A DNA stretch of 22,016 bases from a virus. Below are positions 4,113 to 6,970 of this stretch, piece by piece (the first letter of the stretch is position 1; each line of letters opens with the position of its first letter). The notes beneath the pieces are model-generated. The model worked only from the letters and a program-made list of their open reading frames with translations. It was not told the origin of the DNA and did not search any database. A program made the translations under genes and the position numbers. Location: positions 1 through 22,016 of the IMG/VR virus record IMGVR_UViG_3300032820_000140. One strand, given 5' to 3'.

Positions 4113-4373
4113 CTACAAGCCTTCGGACTCAGAAAACTCGTAGAGCGGACGCTCGCATTCCTCAAGTGCATCCGACTGGTATTCCTGATTTCCGATACGG
4201 GTGTACCATTTGCCCTTGCCGGAACCGGGAGAATTAGACGGCCAATAAGAGGTATCCTCGATACACAGTGTGCCATAAATCCAGCCTTTGGCGCCGAGAA
4301 GCGCGTCGTCCTGGAATGTTGCGGCGAGATCGTCGGCCCACTGCCGTGTGCCCTGGAAACGCTCGAAAGTCAT
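4113..4373 (-). CDS. hypothetical 86-residue protein, first gene of the early operon
   Basis: This gene is first behind the leftward promoter. Its start is preceded by AAGGAGACAAAGGCC. The product contains QWADDLAATFQDDALLGAKG and then an aromatic-rich part (WIYGTLCIEDTSYWP, GKWYTRIGNQEYQ), and ends with an acidic tail. The high Trp/Tyr content and small size suggest a compact beta-rich domain. I do not recognise the family. As the first early gene it would be made soonest and most strongly after derepression, a position phages often give to host-takeover proteins; that is inference. Confidence 0.75.
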   Translation of the reverse strand: MTFERFQGTRQWADDLAATFQDDALLGAKGWIYGTLCIEDTSYWPSNSPGSGKGKWYTRIGNQEYQSDALEECERPLYEFSESEGL

Positions 4374-4390
4374 GGCCTTTGTCTCCTTGT

Positions 4391-4410
4391 TGGTGGTGGT
4401 TGGTGTTGTT
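4391..4410 (-). repeat. degenerate CCA/ACA run in the 5' leader of the early operon
   Basis: The mRNA leader reads AACAACACCAACCACCACCA and then AACAAGGAG. It is a shorter and less regular version of the CCA runs in the next three leaders, in the same place directly upstream of the SD. Confidence 0.75.
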
Positions 4411-4413
4411 GTT

Positions 4414-4432
4414 TGATACCCTCATTGTATCA
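4414..4432. promoter_or_regulatory. 19-bp inverted repeat, probable operator
   Basis: TGATAC-CCTCATT-GTATCA has two perfect 6-bp arms around a 7-bp centre. It covers the -10 box and start-point region of the leftward promoter, the classical place for a repressor site. The adjacent divergent HTH gene is the obvious candidate to bind it. No second copy was found by eye around the rightward promoter. Confidence 0.65.
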
Positions 4433-4451
4433 GAGTTTGCCCGCGTGTCAA
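4424..4451 (-). promoter_or_regulatory. leftward early promoter, sigma70-type
   Basis: On the minus strand there is a perfect TTGACA (4451-4446), a 16-base spacer and TACAAT (4429-4424). Transcription would start near 4418-4416 and give a leader of about 45 bases before the 86-residue gene. This is the best promoter in the window and it drives the early operon. Confidence 0.8.
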
Positions 4452-4487
4452 TAGTCATGACGTATTATTTCCTCTTTTTTTTCCGGG

Positions 4488-4523
4488 TGGTCAATCTTGC
4501 TGGCCCGTGTTATAATGTCCGCA
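4488..4523 (+). promoter_or_regulatory. rightward promoter of the HTH gene, leaderless
   Basis: TATAAT (4511-4516) carries an extended -10 (TG at 4508-4509). A weak -35, TGGTCA (4488-4493), lies 17 bases upstream. The expected start point, six to seven bases after the -10, falls on or next to the A of the ATG at 4523, so the mRNA would have no leader and no SD, as with lambda cI from its maintenance promoter. Confidence 0.7.
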
Positions 4524-4801
4524 TGGAAACTCTACCTCTCTCGTGTCAGATCGTGGACCGGCTCCGGGAGCGTCTCGTAAAATGGGGCGCAGGCCGTGCA
4601 GTTTCCGCTGCTACGGGCATTTCCGAGCCCACCATCAGCCGGATTGCCGGCCGCAAACGAACGCCAACGACTAGACAGGTTGACCTGCTGGCCGCGTACT
4701 TGGGTGTCCGACTGGCGAAGTCGGTCGGGCGTGCCAGAAACCGGCCAGAAACCGACCAGGAACCGGCCAGGAACCGGCCAGGAACCGGCGACGGTGGCTA
4801 A
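4523..4801 (+). CDS. XRE-like helix-turn-helix regulator, probable phage repressor
   Basis: The protein has 92 residues. The HTH lies at about 23-65: GAGRAVSAATGISEPTISRI, then a loop and a third helix ending at LLAAYLGVRLA. The pattern TGIS..TISR is typical of XRE/Cro-cI DNA-binding domains. The frame is open far upstream, but the ATG at 4523 lies at the start point of an extended -10 promoter and begins the recognisable domain. After the HTH comes a hydrophilic tail, rich in Arg, Pro, Glu and Gly, encoded by an 11-bp tandem repeat. The gene is divergent from the early operon, whose promoter carries an inverted repeat, so it probably represses that promoter. A Cro-like or activator role is an alternative. 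There is no cleavable peptidase domain of the LexA type. Confidence 0.82.
   Translation: METLPLSCQIVDRLRERLVKWGAGRAVSAATGISEPTISRIAGRKRTPTTRQVDLLAAYLGVRLAKSVGRARNRPETDQEPARNRPGTGDGG
4734..4788 (+). repeat. five tandem 11-bp repeats, CCAGRAACCGG, inside the HTH gene
   Basis: Copies start at 4734, 4745, 4756, 4767 and 4778; the last three are identical and the first two differ by one or two bases. As 11 is not a multiple of 3, each copy is read in a new phase and the array encodes the low-complexity C-terminal tail of the regulator. Gain or loss of a copy would shift the frame and change the C-terminus. Confidence 0.95.
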
Positions 4802-4808
4802 GATTAGA

Positions 4809-4848
4809 CTTTTGGCGATCTTTGGACGTCTTTGGTGATCTTTGGTGA
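4809..4848 (+). repeat. four 10-bp repeats in the methyltransferase leader
   Basis: Units CTTTTGGCGA, TCTTTGGACG, TCTTTGGTGA and TCTTTGGTGA follow each other at exactly 10 bp between the HTH stop and the methyltransferase ATG at 4862. No SD is visible in this spacer. Confidence 0.9.
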
Positions 4849-4861
4849 TACAGCTACCACG

Positions 4862-5905
4862 ATGATTCCTAAACGATGCTTGACCTTCGGCAGTTTGTTT
4901 TCCGGCATCGGTGGCCTTGACTTGGGCCTTGAGCGTGCCGGCCTGACTTGTAACTGGCAGGTAGAGATTGATGAGTACGCAAACAGAGTTCTGGCCAAGC
5001 ACTGGCCCGACATCCGAAGGTGGGGAGACATCCGTACGTTTCCTCCCGACACCGAGAGTGGAGCAGGGCGGTGGCCAGCGGAGCGGAAGTCGGAAGGACG
5101 AGAATTCAACTCTTGGTCAGATGGCGAGACTTGGTCGGTTGACCTCATCTGCGGTGGTTTCCCCTGCCAGGACATCAGCTACGCCGGTCGCGGAGCAGGG
5201 CTCGACGGGGAGCGAAGCGGATTGTTTTTCGAGGCCATTCGCGTGGTTCGACAACTCCGACCCAGGTACGTGTTGTTGGAAAACGTGGCAGCGCTCCTTA
5301 CTCGGGGGCTGGACCGAGTACATGGGGAGCTGGCCTCGCTCGGTTATAGTACGGAATCGCATTGCATACCGGCTGCCGCCGTTGGTGCCCCGCATATCAG
5401 GGACCGGGTCTTCGTTGTGGGCTACTCCGCAGGCGAGGGATCATTTTCCAGTACACTCACCGGAGTACATAGCGGCGAAGAAATCACAGGGTCATGGGAT
5501 GCGGAATCTGAACGACGAAGTGAAGCTGTGGCCGACTCCAAGGGCGAGCGACTCGGAAAGAGGCGGCAGGGGCGAACTACTACACCAAGTGAAAGGCGGG
5601 ACACCCCGCGGGAAGATGTGGCCGACACCGACGACCAGCGACTGGAAGGATACGGGCGAGAATATGAACTGGGAAAAACGAGCAGCGATAAGTCGTCTGC
5701 CGGGAGTTGTCAACGTGCTGGAAACCGATTCTTCGACGCCCCCATCGGCGGCGAGTGGCTCCCTGAACCCGACGTGGGTCGAGTGGCTCATGGGGTTCCC
5801 TCCAGGGTGGACCGACTTAGAGGTCTCGGAAACGCCGTAGTTCCCCAAGTGGCTGAATGGATTGGCCGTGGAATCATAGGCGACATTACGATCGACGATA
5901 TCTAA
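4862..5905 (+). CDS. C5-cytosine DNA methyltransferase (Dcm type), orphan
   Basis: The protein has 347 residues from the ATG at 4862; a GTG at 4832 would add ten residues, and neither has a good SD. Motifs are in order: I FGSLFSGIGGLDLGLERAG (S-adenosylmethionine binding, 9-27), II EIDEYANRVLAKHWP, IV GGFPCQDIS with catalytic Cys102, VI LLENV (Glu140), VIII HIRDRVFVVG (178-187), a variable target-recognition region (about 190-300) and the late motif LGNAVVPQVAEWIGR (322-336). All key residues are present, so it should be active. It transfers a methyl group to cytosine C5 in a specific, here unknown, site. No endonuclease lies beside it, so protection of phage DNA is the likely role. It lies 60 bp behind the HTH gene, probably in the same transcript. 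Most of it is overlapped in the +1 phase by another long frame. Confidence 0.95.
   Translation: MIPKRCLTFGSLFSGIGGLDLGLERAGLTCNWQVEIDEYANRVLAKHWPDIRRWGDIRTFPPDTESGAGRWPAERKSEGREFNSWSDGETWSVDLICGGFPCQDISYAGRGAGLDGERSGLFFEAIRVVRQLRPRYVLLENVAALLTRGLDRVHGELASLGYSTESHCIPAAAVGAPHIRDRVFVVGYSAGEGSFSSTLTGVHSGEEITGSWDAESERRSEAVADSKGERLGKRRQGRTTTPSERRDTPREDVADTDDQRLEGYGREYELGKTSSDKSSAGSCQRAGNRFFDAPIGGEWLPEPDVGRVAHGVPSRVDRLRGLGNAVVPQVAEWIGRGIIGDITIDDI
4971..5840 (+). CDS. nested +1-phase ORF inside the methyltransferase gene, WPTP-repeat protein
   Basis: This is a 289-codon open frame fully inside the methyltransferase gene, starting at an ATG four bases behind AGGTAGAG. It is not a featureless shadow. 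It has CWKTWQRSLLGGWTEY and WPRSVIVRNRIAYRLPPL (102-138), three related motifs LWATPQARD (149-157), LWPTPRASD (186-194) and MWPTPTTSDWKD (216-227), and a C-terminal LNPTWVEWLMGFPPGWTDL (265-283). From memory, this set of motifs recurs in phage proteins found next to or overlapping C5-methyltransferases; I could not verify that here. The WPTP codons are the VADT/VADS codons of the methyltransferase and the C-terminal motif overlies its GRVAHGVPSRVDRL, so a conserved methyltransferase frame might create the pattern passively. Function is unknown; expression is not shown. Confidence 0.55.
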   Translation: MSTQTEFWPSTGPTSEGGETSVRFLPTPRVEQGGGQRSGSRKDENSTLGQMARLGRLTSSAVVSPARTSATPVAEQGSTGSEADCFSRPFAWFDNSDPGTCCWKTWQRSLLGGWTEYMGSWPRSVIVRNRIAYRLPPLVPRISGTGSSLWATPQARDHFPVHSPEYIAAKKSQGHGMRNLNDEVKLWPTPRASDSERGGRGELLHQVKGGTPRGKMWPTPTTSDWKDTGENMNWEKRAAISRLPGVVNVLETDSSTPPSAASGSLNPTWVEWLMGFPPGWTDLEVSETP

Positions 5906-6295
5906 CGGACTCCCACGCTTCTACCACGCTTCTACCACGGACTACCACGCTTCTACCACGCCTATCGCCCCCCTGCTTTCCTTGCTTTCCTTGCTTCGCT
6001 TGCGTCTCTTGCTTGCGTATTCCCCGCCGTCGTATATTTACTAGCGATCAGCCCTAGAAAATTGCGCTTCGGCGGCACTGACTAAGCGGGCGCGAATTGG
6101 CTGGCCAATTGCAGACCAATTCACCAACTCGCACTTAATCGCACTCCGTCCCAAAATATTTTCTTGCCCTATCTTTGCTCACCGCAGCGAGTTGTGACTC
6201 TCGTCTGCCGATTTTTCCCGCCCAGCCAATTCGGACAGCTCGTAGCCAATTACCCCTTTTAAAGACTTTGGCTTCCTTTCCTAAGGGGGAACACG
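5906..6295. other. non-coding stretch downstream of the methyltransferase
   Basis: About 390 bases hold no convincing gene on either strand. It contains the 10-11 bp CCACGCTTCTA array, then a 9-bp CTTTCCTTG pair with degenerate copies (about 5978-6015), and a group of CCAATT boxes at 6095 (inverted), 6105, 6116, 6226 and 6246. No intrinsic terminator follows the methyltransferase directly. Confidence 0.7.
5913..5965 (+). repeat. tandem 10-11 bp repeats, CCACGCTTCTA
   Basis: Units start at 5913, 5924, 5935, 5945 and 5956. Three are identical 11-mers, the third is a 10-bp variant (CCACGGACTA) and the fifth is degenerate. The array starts eight bases after the methyltransferase stop. Confidence 0.93.
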
Positions 6296-6884: not shown

Positions 6885-6920
6885 CGTGCGCCGCCGGGCC
6901 AATTTGGTTACTGACCGCTC

Positions 6921-6970
6921 GTCGTATCCCGTCGCATCCCGTCGCATCCCGTCGCATCCCGTCGTATCCC
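6921..6970 (+). repeat. GTCGYATCCC 10-bp tandem array (5 copies)
   Basis: Five head-to-tail copies: GTCGTATCCC, three GTCGCATCCC, then GTCGTATCCC. The only variable position is C or T in the fifth base. With the first block this makes seven copies, an iteron-like arrangement at one helical turn per unit. Confidence 0.95.

Follow-up and report, generated by a model that had tools for sequence, protein, structure and literature searches.

The +1 frame nested in a viral C5-cytosine methyltransferase (MTase) gene is not there by chance, and both reading frames of the gene are under selection. We think it quite probable that the locus encodes one C5-cytosine MTase made of two overlapping polypeptides, of the M.EcoHK31I type; the frame-0 product is called alpha and the +1 product beta below. 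Long same-strand overlaps with selection in both frames have rarely been proven in prokaryotes. This one covers about 570 nt and is kept across many bacterial phyla, in phages and prophages as well as in bacterial genomes, although the second protein is rarely annotated, and its two frames are probably two parts of one enzyme.

Two overlapping reading frames in one methyltransferase gene

The gene comes from IMG/VR virus record IMGVR_UViG_3300032820_000140, positions 1 to 22,016 (one strand); this whole stretch of 22,016 nucleotides is the window. The features of the locus are as follows.

4862-5905, + strand: alpha, catalytic chain of the C5-cytosine MTase, 347 aa (ATG 4862; PF00145, phrog_363, phmmer)
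4959-4966, + strand: Shine-Dalgarno (SD)-like AGGTAGAG ahead of ATG 4971, weak and not conserved (sequence, codons of homologues)
4971-5840, + strand: beta, +1-frame ORF, 289 aa from ATG 4971, stop at 5838-5840 (phrog_1008, stop and similarity tests)
5153-5179, + strand: alpha motif IV, GGFPCQDIS, which includes the catalytic Cys (phmmer, coordinates)
About 5241-5840, + strand: conserved, selected part of beta (synonymous constraint, stop and similarity tests)
5241-5390, + strand: N-part of beta (AWFDNSDPGTCCWKTWQRSL...WPRS...Y.LPPLVP), in +1 over alpha motifs VI-VIII (consensus of the beta profile A1, +1 stop counts)
5279-5299, + strand: alpha motif VI, ENVAALL (phmmer, coordinates)
5390-5422, + strand: alpha motif VIII, PHIRDRVFVVG, the limit of homology to ordinary C5-MTases (Pfam, phmmer)
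5415-5441, + strand: beta cassette 1, LWATPQARD (coordinates)
5526-5552, + strand: beta cassette 2, LWPTPRASD; frame 0 there reads VADSKGERL (5528-5554)
5616-5642, + strand: beta cassette 3, MWPTPTTSD; frame 0 there reads VADTDDQRL (5618-5644)
5763-5819, + strand: motif IX in the beta frame, LNPTWVEWLMGFPPGWTDL (A1 profile, hhalign to single-chain relatives)
5822-5857, + strand: alpha motif X, GLGNAVVPQVAE (matches motif X of fused relatives)

The alpha ORF is open from TTG 4832 and ends at 5905, with ATG 4862 the more likely start. Alpha matched phrog_363 (3.4e-75), M.HhaI and M.HaeIII (phmmer) and PF00145 (3.8e-42), the last confined to aa 18-205, which hold motifs I to VIII. Motifs I-VIII and X are present, including IV (PCQ), VI (ENV) and a motif X core reading GNAVVP, which are features of a C5-cytosine MTase. 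Frame 0 of alpha has no canonical motif IX, and the Pfam and phmmer matches stop near aa 205; alpha is not a complete single-chain C5-cytosine MTase, in which motif IX lies between the TRD and X.

The ORF directly upstream (4268-4801) had a weak match to a phage transcriptional repressor (phrog_4583, 6e-4). Short tandem repeats with units of 10-11 bp surround the MTase gene (window positions 4733-4789, 4811-4849, 5913-5961 and 6920-6970); among them are GCCAGGAACCG (x5) within the upstream HTH-like ORF, TTTGGTGATC (x4) at the start of the MTase gene and CCACGCTTCTA (x4.5) just past its stop.

The initial annotation had described a 289-codon +1 ORF inside the MTase gene, and this ORF is present from ATG 4971 to the stop at 5838-5840. 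The three WPTP/WATP-x-ASD/ARD units ascribed to it are also there in number, but the third reads TSD, neither ASD nor ARD. Its terminal motif was located at 5763-5819, and the sharing of bases between the motifs of the two frames was borne out as well: cassettes 2 and 3 coincide with VADSKGERL and VADTDDQRL of frame 0, and the terminal motif coincides with GRVAHGVPSRVDRL (5777-5818). The frame-0 codons GTG GCC GAC under cassettes 2 and 3 are near-fixed among homologues.

A search against phage protein families, as had been suggested, placed the +1 translation in a recurring family, phrog_1008 (E 6.6e-33, profile positions 34-284 of 329), with the match covering most of the family length. This family, labelled "DNA methyltransferase," is known but without an explained function. 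Beta had no match in Pfam, NCBIfam, PADLOC or PDB sequences, and no HNH, defence or PDB homology was found in these searches. Weak matches of A1 to glycolipid transfer proteins among PDB sequences (E 1.2) were set aside as chance. The A1 consensus of the N-part reads SWRTSQxCLxEGxxxFSETWPRSGMMRNGTAYxLPPLAPL.

Both frames are constrained across homologues

Two viral-contig searches, one for each product, yielded 129 distinct homologues, part of which were picked by their similarity to beta. We counted stops in regions set by frame 0 (motif IV to motif X) and obtained expected counts by shuffling synonymous codons within each gene. In every one of the 129 homologues, a large part of the alpha gene is open in +1, and between motifs IV and X this frame held 61 stops against 577 expected. 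Many of these 61 are simply the stop codons at which the +1 ORF ends; the +2 frame held 1219. Whether homologous MTases carry +1 stops had been posed as a check on the nested frame, and these counts show the frame kept open. Similarity of the +1 products gave z scores of 3.3-14.9 (median 8.8) across homologues. Furthermore, a separate cellular set of 73 loci had 7 stops in +1 against 225.5 expected, with the +2 frame at 661 against 673.6.

Long alternative ORFs do arise by chance in G+C-rich genes, and the +1 frame might in principle be open from composition or codon use alone. We give this explanation next to no probability, since shuffles that keep both composition and codon use yield about 9 to 30 times more +1 stops than observed and since ordinary MTases carry about as many stops as the shuffles predict: a control of six phage C5-MTases whose motif IX is ordinary had 81 stops in +1 against 82.4 expected and no match to beta. 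The SPbetaL7 MTase has no beta.

Between motifs VIII and IX, the +1 frame had 1 stop against 125 expected when frame 0 was held fixed. With beta held fixed, frame 0 had 0 against 301, a count that is partly biased because the set was chosen for an open alpha. Among cellular loci selected by beta, alpha reached motif X in 75 of 75.

Substitution rates by codon position changed along the gene. Over alpha aa 15-130, the frame-0 third position evolved at 0.58-0.65 in the most divergent pairs, and its rate was lower in aa 130-187. Over aa 230-300, position 1 was the fastest (0.63 versus 0.53 and 0.49), which is the pattern predicted by a constrained +1 frame. Past aa 336, beyond the end of beta, the third-position rate was again 0.57-0.65 and codon usage was ordinary. 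Synonymous choice was restricted from about aa 138 (window position about 5243), was nearly frozen in the last stretch (A318 is GCT in 122 of 122) and relaxed after aa 328 (about 5815), so that the constraint ends near where the +1 ORF ends. The impression that both frames are constrained, first gained from the motifs, thus holds, on the stop deficits in each frame and the reversed codon-position rates.

Beta recurs with alpha in three layouts

We ran the beta profile A1 on genomes of 84,980 prokaryotic species and recovered loci from many phyla. In 75 of 75 distinct cellular loci, beta overlaps alpha in the same relative frame (alpha in -1), and no stand-alone beta was found among them. Loci without an alpha core mostly lie at contig ends, and two others (L207 and L384) are chimeric or interrupted. 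Alpha and beta are thus an obligate pair. The recurring dual-coded pair beside C5-MTases that the initial annotation had suggested is indeed widespread (129 viral homologues and 75 cellular loci). It had also held that a lack of stand-alone homologues would speak against a second gene; such homologues are absent, but taken with the selection tests their absence refutes nothing and points to an obligate pair, not to a chance frame.

After actinophage and Paenibacillus-type relatives were added, loci were sorted by sequence patterns into three layouts, with some loci unsorted, including 117 without a detectable motif VIII pattern. The dual layout of the window (146 loci) has motif IX in +1 and motif X in frame 0; in the fused layout (58 loci) the alpha frame holds both IX and X; and in the split layout (22 loci) alpha stops after VIII, and X, mostly with IX, lies in +1. 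The actinophage pair Toaka gp83/gp82 is of the split layout, with IX and X both in +1.

Almost every sorted locus has the N-part of beta in +1, and over this region +1 stops numbered 0 against 98.6 expected in the dual class, 1 against 41.5 in the fused class (where the count began 12 codons after ENV) and 0 against 19.9 in the split class. When motif VI was included, the fused class had 37 stops against 72, because its +1 ORF begins just past motif VI. In the fused class the alpha frame already has IX and X, yet the N-part is kept in +1, which indicates that beta does more than supply motif IX.

Several loci had unusual arrangements. In L384 (2000-3193), a tyrosine recombinase ORF ends exactly where the MTase resumes at the WPTP array (...DGFSL* ASQSSLWPTPQARD...), and the MTase gene looks interrupted at the border of motif VIII and the TRD, possibly an integration site. 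In L207 (2687-3377), from a Bacteroidota MAG, an unrelated N-terminal part that by eye resembles a PAPS reductase takes the place of the alpha core and continues in frame into the C-terminal part of alpha with motif X, and the C-part of beta stays in +1. A Pseudodesulfovibrio MAG (L192:1997-3641) has two dual-coded alpha/beta units in tandem. In some E. coli prophages (L335:1489-2658), RefSeq gives alpha as two partial MTase pseudogenes; despite this annotation, the alpha and beta profiles each find their frame there.

The missing motif IX and the WPTP cassettes lie in beta

The terminal motif of beta, LNPTWVEWLMGFPPGW, resembles the canonical motif IX of Klebsiella phage Olmo, LTPRECFRLQGFPDSF, and LNPTWVEWLMGFPPGWTDL is invariant or near-invariant in A1. 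MTases that lack motif IX in frame 0 have beta, and the six with an ordinary IX do not. In the fused chains of actinophage relatives, the order is alpha motifs I-VIII, WPTP cassettes, motif IX and motif X, so that the C-terminus of beta lies in frame, exactly between alpha VIII and X. Profile alignment (hhalign) matched alpha to fused-chain residues 1-161 (prob 100) and beta profile positions 76-209 to residues 197-342 (prob 97.5, E 7.6e-12). Alpha motif X aligned with residues 350-370, a match that is weak alone (prob 37) but collinear. The alpha and beta profiles share nothing in hhalign.

The AlphaFold model of the fused chain was confident in the large domain and the IX-X region (pLDDT about 87-92) and matched M.HhaI along its entire length (Z 21.8, rmsd 3.7, 230 residues). 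Its WPTP cassette region was under pLDDT 50, disordered or unresolved, so that structure lends no support to a role in target recognition. Beta modelled alone was poor (pLDDT 57.6).

The WPTP cassettes are modular and recur between loci, and the same cassette peptide can stand in either frame; PTPRATDGTKGGPNQRGSSGDLMLPSAV, for example, had 49 distinct occurrences in +1 and 14 in frame 0. Judged from this exchange, WPTP is most likely the functional reading and VADS/VADT a shadow of the same bases. Such modular, recurring units make recombination at conserved DNA plausible, and the constraint might then act on DNA or RNA (cassette-swap recombination sites, RNA structure), with beta as a by-product. 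We consider this highly improbable, as the pattern follows codons, with frame-0 position 1, which is free in beta, evolving fastest; as +1 stops are almost absent, whereas +2 stops are at expectation; and as one and the same cassette peptide is encoded in +1 at some loci but in frame 0 at others.

Initiation of beta

The initial annotation had placed the start of beta at ATG 4971 behind the SD-like AGGTAGAG. The element is in the sequence, but it is not a conserved start signal: the ATG sits on the Asp codon of a conserved Glu-Ile-Asp, which is GAT in 34 homologues and GAC in 54, so that ATG 4971 is no conserved start. Synonymous constraint also sets in about 90 codons downstream, and on these two grounds we ruled out this SD and ATG as the conserved start of beta. 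The window locus has no +1 start with an AGGA, GGAG or GAGG match at normal spacing.

Across loci, SD and ATG pairs occurred in +1 in 66 loci against 20.6 expected (+2, 2 against 4.2), and the share of +1 ATGs with an SD was 0.31 versus 0.18; this enrichment owes part to the longer open region. Start sites of beta seem to differ from locus to locus, and separate internal initiation of beta is likely.

Programmed frameshifting from frame 0 to +1 could instead yield an alpha-beta fusion, and the in-frame joining of alpha with the C-part of beta in some actinophage relatives would fit it. We hold this to be very unlikely. Beta is constrained over motifs VI-VIII, so that a shift after VIII leaves the N-part unexplained, and a shift before VI would cost alpha its own VI-VIII; moreover, the dual class has IX and X in different frames, which one shift cannot join, and internal start signals are enriched in +1.

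A proposed two-chain enzyme

In the two-chain enzyme that we propose, frame 0 would give alpha, which would carry AdoMet binding, catalysis (motifs I-VIII, with the Cys of GGFPCQ) and, as its closing helix, motif X. The part of alpha from VIII to X would be variable filler only (the VADS/VADT stretch), which must stay open because the ribosome has to reach motif X. The +1 frame, initiated separately within the gene, would give beta, with its conserved N-part, one to several WPTP cassettes and motif IX. The two chains would then assemble as those of M.EcoHK31I do, and beta would complete alpha with a small domain facing the DNA, which comprises motif IX and probably target recognition. We infer that beta is translated, binds alpha and is needed for activity, and we lean slightly toward the view that its cassettes set specificity.

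Two roles had been offered for the nested protein. A specificity-linked partner is the best reading, given motif IX in beta, the obligate pairing and the fusion into alpha in relatives. A separate anti-defence product is disfavoured, as beta is always with this MTase in the loci examined, holds the missing IX and is fused in relatives. More broadly, beta could have arisen by overprinting of the MTase gene as a protein in its own right, with an anti-restriction, regulatory or other role, and stand outside the enzyme. Its N-part, which has no counterpart in single-chain MTases and stays in +1 even when IX is in the alpha frame, speaks for such a protein, as does the lack of database matches described above; we nevertheless judge it unlikely, because beta never occurred without this MTase in the loci examined, because its C-part is the missing motif IX and relatives have cassettes and IX fused into alpha, and because beta is absent from MTases that possess an ordinary motif IX themselves.

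More tentatively, and with somewhat less confidence than for the cassettes as specificity elements, we suggest that the two-chain enzyme represents a large class of phage and prophage MTases, most of them unannotated, that keep catalytic and DNA-recognition chains in two frames of one DNA stretch. WPTP cassettes would be gained, lost and moved between these frames, and the N-part of beta would be a novel element, confined to the overlap, that binds alpha or DNA. If so, a single recombination or indel event could alter or relocate specificity and leave both chains intact.

The two-chain reading suggests a function for phrog_1008 and would account for the many phage "DNA methyltransferases" in which motif IX seems to be missing. 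It also means that alpha, if expressed without beta, may look dead and have its methylation motif misassigned. In addition, relatives of the fused, split and dual-coded layouts offer a natural series on how genes enter overlapping frames.

Comparison with known systems

Single enzymes are already known in which a C5-MTase consists of two polypeptides, with motif IX on a chain of its own. For family-wide dual coding, two-frame selection and cassette movement, our literature search found no earlier paper, which is weak evidence since its coverage was partial.

In M.EcoHK31I, the small subunit (176 aa) is encoded in a different frame within the gene for the large one, and in vitro activity needs both subunits. 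The window locus is similar in that its small-chain gene is nested in the large-chain gene in another frame. M.EcoHK31I (YGGCCR) was described as a two-polypeptide C5-MTase by Lee, Kam and Shaw (1995, NAR 23:103, cited in PMC3404938), and PMC3404938 assigns motifs I-VIII and X to the large subunit, together with the predicted TRD, and motif IX to the small subunit. The window locus shares a large chain with I-VIII and X but without IX, and a small chain from the same locus with IX; it differs in that the fused relatives place the cassettes with IX, that is, in beta, whereas the published TRD is in the large subunit. The window gene also differs in being a phage or prophage gene with no recognised restriction partner, and the comparison with M.EcoHK31I is one of subunit architecture.

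M.AquI (CYCGRG) is a split C5-MTase with a catalytic half and a motif IX half as two chains from one locus, as in Toaka gp83/gp82. Its beta carries IX and X, whereas motif X of the window is in alpha, and only the actinophage split class shares the M.AquI arrangement. A further difference is that in the window's class the overlap spans most of beta.

The same dual-coded pair occurs in Paenibacillus larvae phages (Diva gp49/gp50 and Bloom gp56/gp57), where it is annotated as two genes, Diva gp50 as "g49 internal gene"; Bloom gp57 and its near-identical Diva counterpart belong to phrog_1008. The annotation gives no functional explanation.

The ShiLan domain is an out-of-frame HNH endonuclease hidden in a phage methylase, a mobile insertion present in some phages (PMC11855218). 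Our locus resembles it in coding another protein in a second frame of a phage MTase gene, but here the overlap covers the core motifs and is universal in the family, not an insertion. No ShiLan-type HNH domain was found in beta (Pfam, NCBIfam, PDB).

M.SPRI and M.phi3TI are multispecific phage C5-MTases with exchangeable TRDs in variable number between motifs VIII and IX. The locus described here likewise has a variable number of short exchangeable units between VIII and IX; in M.SPRI and M.phi3TI all units are on one chain, whereas the WPTP units lie mostly in the second frame.
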